DNA from: a bacterium
GTDB taxonomy: Bacteria; Patescibacteriota; Minisyncoccia; Phycocordibacterales; Zambryskibacteraceae
Assembly: GCA_030650605.1 (NCBI GenBank)
Contig: JAUSDP010000018.1
Coordinates: 1-35,025, forward strand
Direction of reading: 5' to 3'
DNA length: 35,025 bases
Each line of letters starts with the position of its first letter. Within the stretch, counting starts at the first letter, position 1. Shown piece after piece: positions 11,812 through 17,694 of the stretch. The notes beneath the pieces are model-generated. The model was not told the origin of the DNA, made no database searches, and saw nothing but the letters and a program-made list of their open reading frames with translations. A program made the translations under genes and the position numbers.

Positions 11812-13014
11812 ATGAAAAAAAACAAAAAACACAAGAATAAAGAGAAACATCAAGCTTTGAGAAAAAAGATGCTAAAAAAGATTAAAAAAGGTCCCAAGTC
11901 TAAGAAACAGACTAAACAGAAAGCCAAATCGCTCACCAAAAAGAAAATTGATGAAGTGCTCAAAATGGAACGTCTTGCCACGCGTGGTAAAGAACGCGGT
12001 TTCGTTACCTACGATGAAATTCTTAAAGAGTTTCCAACTATTGAGACTAATATAATGTTTCTTGATAATCTGTATGAGAAACTACACGTTCTCGGTGTCG
12101 ATATTCTTGAAGGTGGAGGGTTGTTGGAGATGCCTAAAGAAGAGACTGGTAAGCACTACGCCTACTCAAGAGGTGATTCGTCTTATGATTCTATTCAAAT
12201 GTACCTTAGGGAAATCGGTCAGTATCCTCTAATTGCCGGTTCAATAGAAAAGGAGTTGGCTAAAAGAATTGAGGGGGGAGACGAGGATGCCAAGAATTTA
12301 TTAATGAAAGCCAATCTCCGCTTAGTAGTTTCGATTGCTAAGAAATATGCTAATCGCAGTCCTGATCTGACTCTACTCGATCTGATTCAAGAAGGAAATT
12401 TGGGATTGCACAAAGCAGTGGAAAAATTTGATTGGACCAAGGGTTTCAAATTTTCTACCTATGCAACATGGTGGATTAGGCAAGCCATTACTCGCGCTCT
12501 GGCTGATCAGTCACGTACTATTCGTGTGCCAGTGCACATGGTCGAGACTATTGCTAAGTATAAACAGGTTGTTCGGCGCTTGTCCCAAGATCTTGGGCGG
12601 GAGCCCTTGCAAGAAGAAATTGCATTAGAGATGAATTTGGATGTGGAAAAAATTTATCAGATTGAGAAAATCGACCAATCTACGATTTCTCTCGAGAGCC
12701 CGGTAGGCAATGACGGCGAAGACGACAAAAGTAAACTCGGAGATTTCTTGGCAGATGATAAAATTCTTTCTCCAGATCAGGATTCGTCACGGCGTATTAT
12801 TTCCGACCAGGTGCGTGAGATTTTAAACGACCTGCCTCCAAAGGAGAGGAAAATTTTGGAGATGCGTCATGGGCTCTTAGACAGTTACACTCATACTCTC
12901 GAAGAAGTGGGAAAGGTTTTTGGTGTTACTCGTGAACGCATTCGTCAGATAGAAGCCAAAGCGCATGAAAAAATCCGCCAACATGAGAAAATTAATCGTT
13001 TGAGGGGGTATTAA
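11812..13014 (+). CDS. rpoD: Primary sigma factor RpoD (sigma-70)
   Basis: This is the housekeeping promoter-recognition subunit. A lysine-rich N terminus (residues 1-50) precedes a short region 1.1-like helical segment. Region 1.2/2 begins at MYLREIGQYPLI, with LDLIQEGNLGLHKAVEKFDW and FKFSTYATWWIRQAITRALA as region 2 (core binding, -10 recognition). Region 4 ends the protein as EEVGKVFGVTRERIRQIEAK, the -35 helix-turn-helix. At 400 aa it is complete but lacks the large non-conserved insert of E. coli RpoD. A near-identical copy of its last 37 codons lies at 13806-13916, beyond the MntA/HepT genes. Confidence 0.97.
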   Translation: MKKNKKHKNKEKHQALRKKMLKKIKKGPKSKKQTKQKAKSLTKKKIDEVLKMERLATRGKERGFVTYDEILKEFPTIETNIMFLDNLYEKLHVLGVDILEGGGLLEMPKEETGKHYAYSRGDSSYDSIQMYLREIGQYPLIAGSIEKELAKRIEGGDEDAKNLLMKANLRLVVSIAKKYANRSPDLTLLDLIQEGNLGLHKAVEKFDWTKGFKFSTYATWWIRQAITRALADQSRTIRVPVHMVETIAKYKQVVRRLSQDLGREPLQEEIALEMNLDVEKIYQIEKIDQSTISLESPVGNDGEDDKSKLGDFLADDKILSPDQDSSRRIISDQVREILNDLPPKERKILEMRHGLLDSYTHTLEEVGKVFGVTRERIRQIEAKAHEKIRQHEKINRLRGY

Positions 13015-13805: not shown

Positions 13806-13916
13806 ATAGTTGGTAAAGTTTTCGGAGTCGCTCGCGAACGTATTCGTCAGATAGAAGCCAAAGCGCATGAAAAAATCCGCCAACACGAGAAAATTAATCG
13901 TTTGAGAAGGTATTAA
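13806..13916 (+). pseudogene. Duplicated 3' end of rpoD (37 codons)
   Basis: The translation reads VGKVFGVARERIRQIEAKAH and continues to NRLRRY and a stop, differing from the end of rpoD (12906-13014) by only two residues (T to A, G to R) and a few silent bases. The fragment has no start codon or upstream sigma sequence. It marks the far side of the MntA/HepT insertion: either the original rpoD tail displaced by an incoming copy, or a duplication. A small hairpin TCAAAGA/TCTTTGA (13919-13935) and an inverted repeat at 13969 follow. Confidence 0.9.
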
Positions 13917-13968
13917 TGTCAAAGATCGTCTTTGATATGTGAAATGTCCTAAGCTAAATTTTAGACAC

Positions 13969-14006
13969 ATACGTTATAATAATGCTATAGCATCAAAGTA
14001 ACGTAT
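13969..14006. repeat. CATACGTTA-family inverted repeat, copy A
   Basis: ATACGTTA (13969-13976) pairs with TAACGTAT (13999-14006) around a perfect 12-base inner palindrome ATGCTATAGCAT (13982-13993). It follows the duplicated rpoD tail by 52 bases. The inner part and right arm are nearly identical to the copy at 15054. Confidence 0.8.
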
Positions 14007-14036
14007 AGCGATATATCCTTATTTTATTAAACACTT

Positions 14037-14409: not shown

Positions 14410-14485
14410 CCACCTGTCCAGTTAACCCTATGAGGTGACATTCTTGCGCGATTAGGGTGACAAAGGTTAACTAAAGGGTCTAAGA

Positions 14486-14577
14486 CAGAATTCATGATGT
14501 TTCTGAAGCATCCGGCGTGGCTGTGGTTTAAGAAATATCCTAAGCTCAGCTTATGGATGATGTTGAAAGGGTGGTAA
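14486..14577 (+). pseudogene. Fragment of the 5' end of the DUF2779 gene
   Basis: CAGAATTCATGATGTTTCTG and the following 35 or so bases match the start of the DUF2779 gene (from 16160), giving EFMMFLKHPAWLWFKKY against EFMMFLKHPTWLWLKKY. Similarity stops near 14545 and the frame ends at a TAA near 14577. The fragment and the intact gene form direct repeats around a 1.6-kb block with hicBA, a membrane protein and the RNA candidate. Confidence 0.8.
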
Positions 14578-14620: not shown

Positions 14621-14842
14621 ATGACAAATTCTTATACTGCTTTATATAAAAAGTCTGGAGGGTGGTATGCCGCTTGGATAGAAGAAATATCTGGTGTTAA
14701 TACTCAAGGCAAGACTTTAAAGGAAGCTAGAGAAAATCTCAAAGAAGCTCTAACATTAGTTATAGAAACTAATCGTTTATTCAATAAGCTCAAAAATTCC
14801 AAAGGTGTTATTCGTGAATCTGTTTCTGTGTCCCGTGCATGA
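14621..14842 (+). CDS. hicB: HicB-family antitoxin
   Basis: The 73-aa protein starts MTNSYTALYKKSGGWYAAWI and has the partial RNase H-like HicB fold (EISGVNTQGKTLKEARENLKEAL). HicB binds and blocks the HicA mRNA interferase and usually represses its own operon; no separate DNA-binding domain is visible in this short form. ATG 14621 is preferred over GTG 14615. GATAAT at 14606-14611 lies nine bases before the ATG with no SD, suggesting a very short leader. Its stop overlaps the hicA start (ATGA). Confidence 0.8.
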   Translation: MTNSYTALYKKSGGWYAAWIEEISGVNTQGKTLKEARENLKEALTLVIETNRLFNKLKNSKGVIRESVSVSRA

Positions 14843-15028
14843 AAAGGATTGATTTAGTTCGATATCTGATTAAAGAAGGCTTGCACTCTTGTGCGTGAAG
14901 GATCACGTCACAGTATCTTCATTAATATGGTAACTAGGCGTTCTTCTTCCGTTCCTCGTCACAAAGAGATTAACAATTTCACAGCTCGTAAAATTTGTAG
15001 AGATCTCGGTGTTACAGAAATGCCATAA
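14839..15028 (+). pseudogene. hicA: HicA-like mRNA interferase toxin, frameshifted
   Basis: The frame opens MKRIDLVRYLIKEG and would stop after 19 codons. Removing one T from the TT at 14881-14882 restores a HicA-like protein: KEGCTLVREGSRHSIFINMV followed by SSVPRHKEINNFTARKICRD. The GSRHSIF segment holds the catalytic histidine of HicA, and VPRH..EI is typical. So this is either a toxin gene killed by a +1 frameshift or a sequencing error. The antitoxin gene is intact, as expected after toxin decay. Confidence 0.8.
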
Positions 15029-15053: not shown

Positions 15054-15093
15054 CATACGTTATAACAATGCTATAGCATCAAAGTAACGTATG
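15054..15093. repeat. CATACGTTA-family inverted repeat, copy B
   Basis: CATACGTTA (15054-15062) pairs perfectly with TAACGTATG (15085-15093) around the same inner palindrome ATGCTATAGCAT (15068-15079) as copy A. It lies 25 bases after the hicA remnant. A further inverted repeat, AATGTTAAA (15109-15117) with TTTAACATT (15138-15146), encloses a direct repeat of ACTGAGTATTT. Confidence 0.8.
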
Positions 15094-15157
15094 GCGAAAT
15101 AGCGCTATAATGTTAAACACTGAGTATTTACTGAGTATTTAACATTGACGATGTACA

Positions 15158-15227: not shown

Positions 15228-15473
15228 TTATGATGAGGAAGGGCAGTTTCTCTTAAGGAGCTCTCTTCTCACCCACAGGATTCCCACCCACAGGAAGAGT
15301 AACCCCATCACGATCATAATAACAAGAGAAAGCCATTCCCCAGCCGTAATTCTCTTCTCAATGATGAGATAGATGATAAACTGACTTACGGCCGTGAGGA
15401 CGGCAAGTGACCCGGTACCAAACATCAGGATGACTCCGACTTTGTCGCGGGTGCGCACCAAAAATGGTTCCAT
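15228..15473 (-). CDS. Small two-pass membrane protein, SD-led
   Basis: The 81-aa product starts MEPFLVRTRDKVGVILMFGT and has two hydrophobic helices, about residues 13-38 and 46-67 (WLSLVIMIVMGLLFLWVGIL), then a basic tail ending in PSSS. I do not recognise a family. GAGGAGG lies eight bases before ATG 15473, which decides this start over longer in-frame options. A probable terminator follows the stop. It is another isolated SD-led unit in the accessory stretch. Confidence 0.7.
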   Translation of the reverse strand: MEPFLVRTRDKVGVILMFGTGSLAVLTAVSQFIIYLIIEKRITAGEWLSLVIMIVMGLLFLWVGILWVRRELLKRNCPSSS

Positions 15474-15667
15474 ATTATTCCTCCTCATATTTATTCGTTG
15501 TTCGGTTTCTGGCTTACAAATGTATTGCTTGTCTACCGTTAGTAATAGCATATTAGACCGTAAAAATCAACCTTTTCGTAATCCCCAATACTTTAGACTA
15601 GAAGCTATTTCTGCTGAGGTAGTGTTAAACTCTTGAGAGGATTACAGCTTTTGTAAATTAAAAATTA

Positions 15668-15703
15668 GAAATAAAAAAGGCCGACGATATGCCGTCGAGC
15701 CTT
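15668..15703 (-). terminator. Terminator of the RNA candidate
   Basis: AAGGC-CGACG (15677-15686) pairs with CGTCG-A-GCCTT (15693-15703) with one bulge. On the minus strand the stem is followed by a UUUUUUAUUU tract. Confidence 0.8.
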
Positions 15704-16050
15704 GTGGAAGTAGGATGTGAGCTGGCAGCTAGATTATTACCAACTCACATCCCTAAAAACAATATCCAGGTTGTCATCGGTTATCGTAACTTAAGTCGCG
15801 ATAACTCTGACGGGTTCCACCTCGTATTACGGTGGCCATGGATTACCTTAGCGGGAATTTACCCCCCCCGTGGAGTGCGGAATAAAGAGGCAGCCGCACA
15901 CTCTACAGATCAGTTTCAAGATGAAGTCTAGCTCCTTCATGCTTGTGACAAGTCCTTCCGGCTTGTCAAACCGCTCTGGCCTCTTGACGATCTGCCTTTC
16001 TGGCGTCTCAATCGTTATTGGCGCCGGGCGATCGTTTTCGTACTTCCTAC
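15668..16050 (-). ncRNA. Candidate structured noncoding RNA of about 380 nt
   Basis: A strong promoter (16083-16056) and a terminator (15703-15668) bracket a stretch with no convincing ORF but dense perfect stems. In plus coordinates: ACGAT 15987/16011, TGACAAG 15946 with CTTGTCA 15962, CAAGATGAAG 15917 with CTTCAT-G-CTTG 15935, GAGTGCGG 15873 with CCGCACACTC 15894, CCACC 15817/15831, GTTATCG 15780 with CGATAAC 15799, and GATGTGAG 15714 with CTCACATC 15744. The ends also pair: TCCTACTT (16045-16052) with AAGTAGGA (15708-15715). I looked for RNase P RNA, tmRNA, SRP and 6S signatures and found none. Overlapping ORFs on both strands lack SD sites and cross the hairpins. Identity unknown. Confidence 0.6.
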
Positions 16051-16055
16051 TTGAT

Positions 16056-16083
16056 AGTATAGCATAACCAGTTTTATTGTCAA
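16056..16083 (-). promoter_or_regulatory. Promoter of the RNA candidate
   Basis: On the minus strand, consensus TTGACA (16083-16078), a 16-base spacer and TATACT (16061-16056) with an extended TG form one of the best promoters in the window. The predicted start is near 16049. Confidence 0.75.
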
Positions 16084-16143: not shown

Positions 16144-17694
16144 ATGGTAATATCCAAATCAGAATTCATGATGTTTCTGAAGCATCCGACATGGTTGTGG
16201 CTTAAGAAATACGACAAAGATAAGTTACCCCTTCCAGACGAGGGATTACAAGCACTTTTTGACGAAGGTAGTCTCTTTGAGCAATATGCTGAGAAACTTT
16301 TCCTGCCTGCGCAGGCAGGTCCCAACGCCGTCAAACTTGGTTATAAGAACGGTAATGAATTTAGCGGTACGAAGTATTATGCTCTACCTGATCTGACAAA
16401 GAAAGAAATTGAGAAGGGGACAGAGGTAATTCTGCAAGGTAGATTTGAGGTTGACCCCGCCCTTGGCGGGGCAGGCAGTATCACGTCTATCTTCGATGTC
16501 TTGGAGAAAGTAGGTGATAAAGTTTACGATTTATATGAAATCAAATCTTCTACCAGCGTTAAGCCAGAACATATTCCCGATCTTGCCTTCCAGACCATTG
16601 TGCTTGAGAAAGCCGGATTAACTGTTCGAAATATGTATGTACTCCATGTGAACAATAAATATGTGAGACAGGGTGAAATTGATCCAGCAAGTATCAGTGA
16701 GAAATCGGATGTGACAGAGGAGGTACGCGAAAGTCTTCTAGAAACGCGCGAGAATATCTCAAAAGCGTTTAAGGTTCTTAAGGAAAAGGAGATGCCAGAT
16801 ATTTCTCCCCGTCATCTTAAAAGTGGTGGGGACACGCTGAAAGAATGGCTAAACATTTTCCAAGCGATCAAAGGTGAATTGCCCCGCTACAGTATTTATA
16901 AGCTTTGCAGTCCAGATCCGGATACAATTGCTTGGCTCGAAGATAGTGGCATAGAATTGTTGAATGAGATTCCGCTCGATGGTCCACTGACAGCAAAGCA
17001 ATTACGGCAAGTCGAAGCTATGAGGTCTGGAGTTCAGCATATAAATAGCGAAGAGATCAGAAATTTTCTCGATGCTTTAAAATACCCATTACATTTCTTA
17101 GATTATGAGACCATGGCTGGTGTCATACCAGCCTTCGATGGTTACCGACCATATCAGCAAGTGCCTTTCCAATACTCACTCCATATTTTGGATAAGCTGG
17201 GAGGCAAATTAATACACAAAGAATATTTACACACAGACAATTCCGATCCTGTGCCTACTCTTCTTGAACATCTCCAAACTGATTTTTCTGGCAAGGGTTC
17301 TGTAATTTCTTGGTTCATGACTTTTGAGAAAAATAGAAATTTAGAAATGGGGAAAATATGTCCCAAATACGAAAAATTTCTGACTGGGGTAAATGAGAGA
17401 ATGGTTGATCTGATGACCCCGTTTGCTAAAGGTTGGTTTGTGGATAAAGAATTTTTTGGGAAGGCATCAATCAAGTTTGTTCTACCAGCTCTTTTGCCTG
17501 AATTGAGTTATAAAGAACTCAACATCTCTAACGGTGGGCAAGCTCAGCGCGTGTGGATGCAAACTGTACTGGAGGGCAAAAATCCCGAGAAGAAACAGCA
17601 AATCATGAATGACATGAGAGAATATTGCGGGCTAGATACCTATGCTATGTATGCTATCCTCAAGTATCTTGAGGAAACCTGCCCGACCAGATGA
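16144..17694 (+). CDS. DUF2779 protein: PD-(D/E)XK nuclease plus DEDD exonuclease-like domain
   Basis: The 516-aa protein combines two nuclease-like modules. The N-terminal half has a Cas4/RecB-like PD-(D/E)XK core ending in YEIKSST (about residue 131), the E-x-K of the active site. The C-terminal half, the DUF2779 region, starts HFLDYETMAG (about 318, D-x-E) and ends with YCGLDTYAMY (about 493), the Y-x3-D of DEDDy exonucleases. The role is unknown; DNA or RNA processing is inferred from the folds. GC-rich palindromes are inserted in frame twice (LPAQAGPNA and DPALGGAGS), and a third overlaps the stop. The start appears leaderless. A copy of its first 55 or so bases lies at 14486. Confidence 0.8.
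   Translation: MVISKSEFMMFLKHPTWLWLKKYDKDKLPLPDEGLQALFDEGSLFEQYAEKLFLPAQAGPNAVKLGYKNGNEFSGTKYYALPDLTKKEIEKGTEVILQGRFEVDPALGGAGSITSIFDVLEKVGDKVYDLYEIKSSTSVKPEHIPDLAFQTIVLEKAGLTVRNMYVLHVNNKYVRQGEIDPASISEKSDVTEEVRESLLETRENISKAFKVLKEKEMPDISPRHLKSGGDTLKEWLNIFQAIKGELPRYSIYKLCSPDPDTIAWLEDSGIELLNEIPLDGPLTAKQLRQVEAMRSGVQHINSEEIRNFLDALKYPLHFLDYETMAGVIPAFDGYRPYQQVPFQYSLHILDKLGGKLIHKEYLHTDNSDPVPTLLEHLQTDFSGKGSVISWFMTFEKNRNLEMGKICPKYEKFLTGVNERMVDLMTPFAKGWFVDKEFFGKASIKFVLPALLPELSYKELNISNGGQAQRVWMQTVLEGKNPEKKQQIMNDMREYCGLDTYAMYAILKYLEETCPTR
16302..16319. repeat. Perfect 18-base palindrome inside the DUF2779 gene
   Basis: CCTGCCTGCGCAGGCAGG is fully self-complementary and encodes the inserted-looking LPAQAG. 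A second palindrome, CCCCGCC/GGCGGGG at 16455-16471, encodes DPALGGAG in the same gene and is nearly the same element as in rpsP. Confidence 0.7.

Follow-up and report, generated by a model that had tools for sequence, protein, structure and literature searches.

The window, as we call the whole 35,025-nt stretch of DNA analysed here, carries a gene for a structured RNA between rpoD and the nuclease gene DUF2779, in an insertion hot spot. The DUF2779 domain belongs with presumed 3'-5' exonucleases in one clade, and a domain resembling PD-(D/E)XK nucleases is present in its family (PMC3985635). DUF2779 neighbourhoods from 61 genomes showed that rpoD and DUF2779 lie side by side across much of the genus, with an intervening space of variable content: it holds almost nothing in genomes G001, G004, G007 and G009, a short spacer in G006, HicBA-like genes in G013 and G016, and other inserts in G011. 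At least seven congeners have the two genes close together without the RNA.

Several further features were noticed around the gene. The last 109 nt of rpoD are duplicated (12906-13014 and 13808-13916, 89% identical) behind an MNT/HepT toxin-antitoxin pair, and in G013 (L027) the HicBA-like insert is flanked by a comparable partial copy of the rpoD end; the 3' end of rpoD appears to be a site of insertion. DUF2779 has a second copy of its start farther upstream (14479-14537 and 16153-16211, 88%), which places a HicBA remnant, a small open reading frame (ORF) and the RNA between the two. Compared with its intact counterpart in G016 (L024), the hicA-like toxin gene at 14840-15028, beside a hicB-like gene, appears to be disrupted by a frameshift. 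An intergenic repeat of 68 nt with inverted ends (TACGTTA...TAACGTA), possibly a terminator or a recombination site, occurs at 13968-14035 and 15054-15121, and similar palindromes are found upstream of DUF2779 in G006 (L028) and G013 (L027). The minus strand of 15228-15473 encodes a predicted membrane protein of 81 aa, which lacks a Pfam match and whose ORF has a good ribosome binding site. The assembly that contains the window measures 1.14 Mb compared with 0.4 to 0.6 Mb in its genus, which reflects either a real expansion or a mixed bin.

A sigma-70 type promoter is present on the minus strand at 16056-16083. It consists of TTGACA (16083-16078), a 16-nt spacer and TATACT (16061-16056), the latter preceded by TG, and 11 of its 12 hexamer bases match the consensus. 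Transcription is expected to start near 16049. At the other end, an intrinsic terminator hairpin followed by a U run occupies 15677-15703 on the same strand, as judged from sequence and fold; its stem runs from 15698 to 15681 and is followed by CCTTTTTTAT. The RNA gene, of about 370 nt, thus extends over 15675-16049 (minus), an assignment that also draws on its fold (z -6.4), its helices and a homologue in a sister species. The plus strand folds well too, and it is the promoter and the terminator that set the minus strand as the RNA strand. The original prediction of a structured RNA bounded by a consensus promoter and a terminator is therefore confirmed.

Folding of the minus strand from 15660 to 16055 gave -147.4 kcal/mol (z -5.7), and none of 100 shuffled sequences did equally well. 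The transcript trimmed to 375 nt reached a z of -6.4, with none of 200 shuffles as good, and lies 3.5 standard deviations below the regression of minimum free energy on GC content for the window, the next most extreme 375-nt segment lying 2.7 below. The z of -5.0 obtained for the plus strand is explained by the perfect stems. Those stems had been described before, and we found them in the sequence where they had been placed. A helix joining the 5' and 3' ends, also part of the original prediction, was recovered with 7 bp and a mean pair probability of 0.95; its 5' arm GGAAGUA (16041-16047, minus) pairs with UACUUCC at 15706-15712, and the 3' arm of the homologue falls in an assembly gap.

Within this closing helix, all on the minus strand, domain a (15987-16035) is a long irregular hairpin whose predicted topology is similar in the homologue. 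Domain b (15885-15985), the best conserved part, is a three-way junction with hairpins at 15947-15967 and 15921-15940 and the conserved sequence GAGGCCARANCGGUUU ... AGCUAGAYUUCA ... GCCUC. Domains c, d and e (15752-15882) make up a variable middle, which is shorter and different in the homologue, so that the middle thirds of the two RNAs fold differently. Domain f (15714-15751) is a 14-bp hairpin. It and several other hairpins have pair probabilities of 0.96 or more, and pairing in parts of the middle (15815-15882) is uncertain, with probabilities of 0.2 to 0.8.

The longest ORFs that overlap the RNA encode 90 aa (minus strand) and 80 aa (plus strand). Neither has a Pfam match or a counterpart in the homologue, and no reading frame is common to the two sequences. 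A protein-coding reading of the region was therefore rejected, in keeping with the earlier statement that no ORF with a ribosome binding site fits.

The RNA matched no known family. Rfam 15 yielded no match in the window at the gathering score, and at E values up to 10 the sole match was rli40, with 10.7 of 100 bits, which lies beyond the RNA on the opposite strand. In length and in their paired ends, RNase P RNA (RF00010) and tmRNA (RF00023) resemble the RNA; it matched neither family at E up to 10, and both are encoded elsewhere in the genome, RNase P RNA on contig C79 (8031-8448, 67.8 bits, E 7.8e-21) and tmRNA on contig C78 (5655-6060). ARAGORN found neither tRNA nor tmRNA in the window. 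SRP RNA was rejected because there was no match at E up to 10 and because the RNA is present in only 2 of the 17 genus genomes searched; its GGAA hairpin loop is not conserved in the homologue. The absence of signatures of RNase P, tmRNA, SRP and 6S RNA reported in the original prediction thus holds, the exclusion of 6S and large SRP RNA being by way of the cmscan of the window and the patchy distribution only. As a separate observation, the small bacterial SRP RNA (RF00169) was not found in any of 21 genomes, namely that of the window and 20 relatives, whereas most control genomes matched; the SRP RNA of the Zambryskibacteria lineage may be highly diverged.

The sister species, Candidatus Zambryskibacteria bacterium RIFOXYD2_FULL_43_10 (G003, locus L034), harbors a diverged second RNA in its rpoD-DUF2779 space, on the same DUF2779 side, in the same orientation and with a promoter of the same kind (TTGACA...TATGAT) at the same distance. 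The 285 nt available fold with a z of -7.2, and the 3' end lies in an assembly gap. In both carriers the RNA start and the DUF2779 start are about 95 nt apart and divergent, and the flank between them is 82% identical over 124 nt, including the DUF2779 start. We built a covariance model from the window sequence alone and its predicted structure, which makes for a non-circular homology test. Among 72 loci (382 kb), in which the sister locus is present twice (L034 and L060), that model detected the sister locus (E 0.002) and nothing else up to E 10.

We then compared the two structures. In domain b, aligned by hand and fitted to the structure, 11 of the 33 pairs carry changes on both sides yet still pair, and 1 of 61 cells is unpaired, compared with 0 or 1 pairs changed on both sides and kept in slid controls. 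No pair of hairpin f is broken: 3 have changed on both sides and 1 on one side, and the sister RNA has one extra base pair, added on both arms. Over domain b and hairpin f, 14 pairs were changed on both sides and kept and 1 was broken, counts that come from two sequences in a structure-guided alignment with an incomplete sister end. Outside helices and loops the sequence is poorly conserved. The RNA gene looks real and fast-evolving, and its earlier description as an unassigned structured RNA is borne out by compensatory changes relative to a syntenic homologue and by the lack of an Rfam family.

That homologue goes beyond the original prediction, as does a complementarity between two hairpin loops. 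Loop AGCUAGA (15927-15933, minus), in the second hairpin of domain b, is complementary to loop UCUAGCU (15727-15733, minus) of hairpin f, over 7 bp in the window RNA and 8 nt in the sister RNA. When all hairpin loops were compared within each predicted fold, only one pair reached 5 complementary bases, and it was the same pair in both RNAs. For these stretches, duplex energies of -6.7 to -9.4 kcal/mol were calculated. Their letters are identical in both RNAs, which is conservation rather than covariation. The two conserved loops probably form a kissing loop. An intramolecular kiss would join domain b to domain f and lock the fold; an intermolecular one would give an oligomer.

The RNA is single copy in each carrier and, among the Patescibacteria genomes sampled, was found in these two species only. 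By blastn, 61 relatives and 384 genomes of the class yielded only terminator-like or chance matches, as inspected by eye. Covariance model R1 detected the sister RNA only, both in 119 relatives and in 397 genomes of the order, apart from a match inside a sugar-transferase-like gene that was rejected as false. Model R2 found no further member in 40 relatives searched with permissive filters, in 384 genomes of the class or in 380 genomes of the phylum; all samples searched with R1 and R2 overlap, the wide searches used stricter filters, and the first pass may lose distant members. A pattern search of genome contigs gave one true match, the sister genome. From a search of viral contigs with four patterns, L049 was checked with R1 and 100 listed loci with R2, and none of these was a member; phage and plasmid records gave none either. 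In a DUF2779 tree the two carriers group as sisters (support 0.975), which makes a single gain before their split the simplest history. The RNA was thus probably gained once, before the two sister species separated, at a variable site beside rpoD, and it is probably dispensable for the genus. It is not a housekeeping RNA, since it is missing from most of the genus. Its absence there and the variable toxin-antitoxin inserts at the locus fit the proposal of an accessory RNA in a mobile, toxin-rich region.

The RNA is bounded by a dedicated promoter and terminator, is predicted to fold into a very stable, closed multi-helix structure, and shows compensatory evolution and a conserved loop-loop complementarity. 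In our opinion it is quite likely the product of an independent non-coding RNA gene that acts in trans, most likely in a structural or protein-binding role rather than as an antisense or cis-regulatory element, with loops that kiss within or between molecules, gained once and dispensable. Regulation by base pairing, with the divergent DUF2779 gene or the island's toxin-antitoxin genes as targets, would agree with the close divergent starts in both carriers and the well-conserved flank between them. Nevertheless, DUF2779 is kept without the RNA in most congeners, the RNA is poorly conserved outside helices and loops, and the toxin genes of the island were not seen between rpoD and DUF2779 in the sister genome, so we regard this role as unlikely. 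It appears very improbable that the RNA is a cis-acting leader or riboswitch for the membrane-protein ORF that follows it (15473-15228, minus). That ORF lies on the same strand with its ribosome binding site about 200 nt past the terminator; yet it has a possible promoter of its own nearby, identified by eye, and is absent beside the sister RNA; there, a gap of about 100 nt separates the RNA from the 3' end of the convergent rpoD, and no gene on the RNA's strand intervenes.

The position in an island with duplicated ends of rpoD and DUF2779 would also suit the RNA part of a mobile element, such as a retron ncRNA, an omega RNA or an intron, either as a remnant or as a stand-alone RNA kept without its protein. 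In retron ncRNAs (msr-msd), a helix joins the 5' and 3' ends, and there are several hairpins, one of them long, an outline that the window RNA resembles. However, reading of the ORF translations revealed no reverse transcriptase in the 35-kb window or beside the sister RNA, and no TnpB or IscB among the window ORFs. The sole transposase-like ORF is 18 kb away at the window edge, no Rfam match to such RNAs appeared at E up to 10, and the RNA is single copy; compensatory change that preserves its helices argues for a present function. We therefore give such an origin a low probability, slightly below that of the base-pairing regulator.

The RNA can also be compared with GOLLD, ROOL and OLE, which are stand-alone, highly structured RNAs of poorly understood function, and in such ornate RNAs kissing loops within and between molecules help to stabilise RNA-only oligomers (PMC12286853). 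The window RNA likewise stands alone and is highly structured, with a loop complementarity, intra- or intermolecular, that is predicted here from sequence. In contrast to GOLLD and ROOL, it is only about 370 nt long, the ROOL studied measuring 659 nt and many GOLLD RNAs exceeding 800 nt (PMC12286853). It also differs in being absent from phage records and not near tRNA genes, and the Rfam models of the three families showed no sequence-structure similarity to the window. A limited literature search turned up no paper on structured RNAs peculiar to the Candidate Phyla Radiation. With its ends closed, several stable helices and a lock between loops, the RNA would have a compact tertiary fold, and it may act as an object in trans, bound by protein or self-assembling. 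A bolder version, which is possible but on balance doubtful, holds that it defines a new, compact class of ornate RNAs in Patescibacteria, of about 370 nt, in which the AGCUAGA/UCUAGCU contact builds an RNA-only homo-oligomer or a ribonucleoprotein in a minimal-genome organism.

The RNA is probably a new, lineage-specific orphan ncRNA, and we infer a function as a trans-acting scaffold or protein-bound RNA. As its sequence is defined, in vitro work can address its fold, multimer state and partners, with no need to grow the host. Its carriers, a groundwater bacterium with a tiny genome and a sister species, possess an RNA of a kind absent from the RNA family library. Its maintenance through compensatory change, as a large accessory RNA in a minimal genome, suggests that RNAs of this sort are worth their cost even in such a genome.
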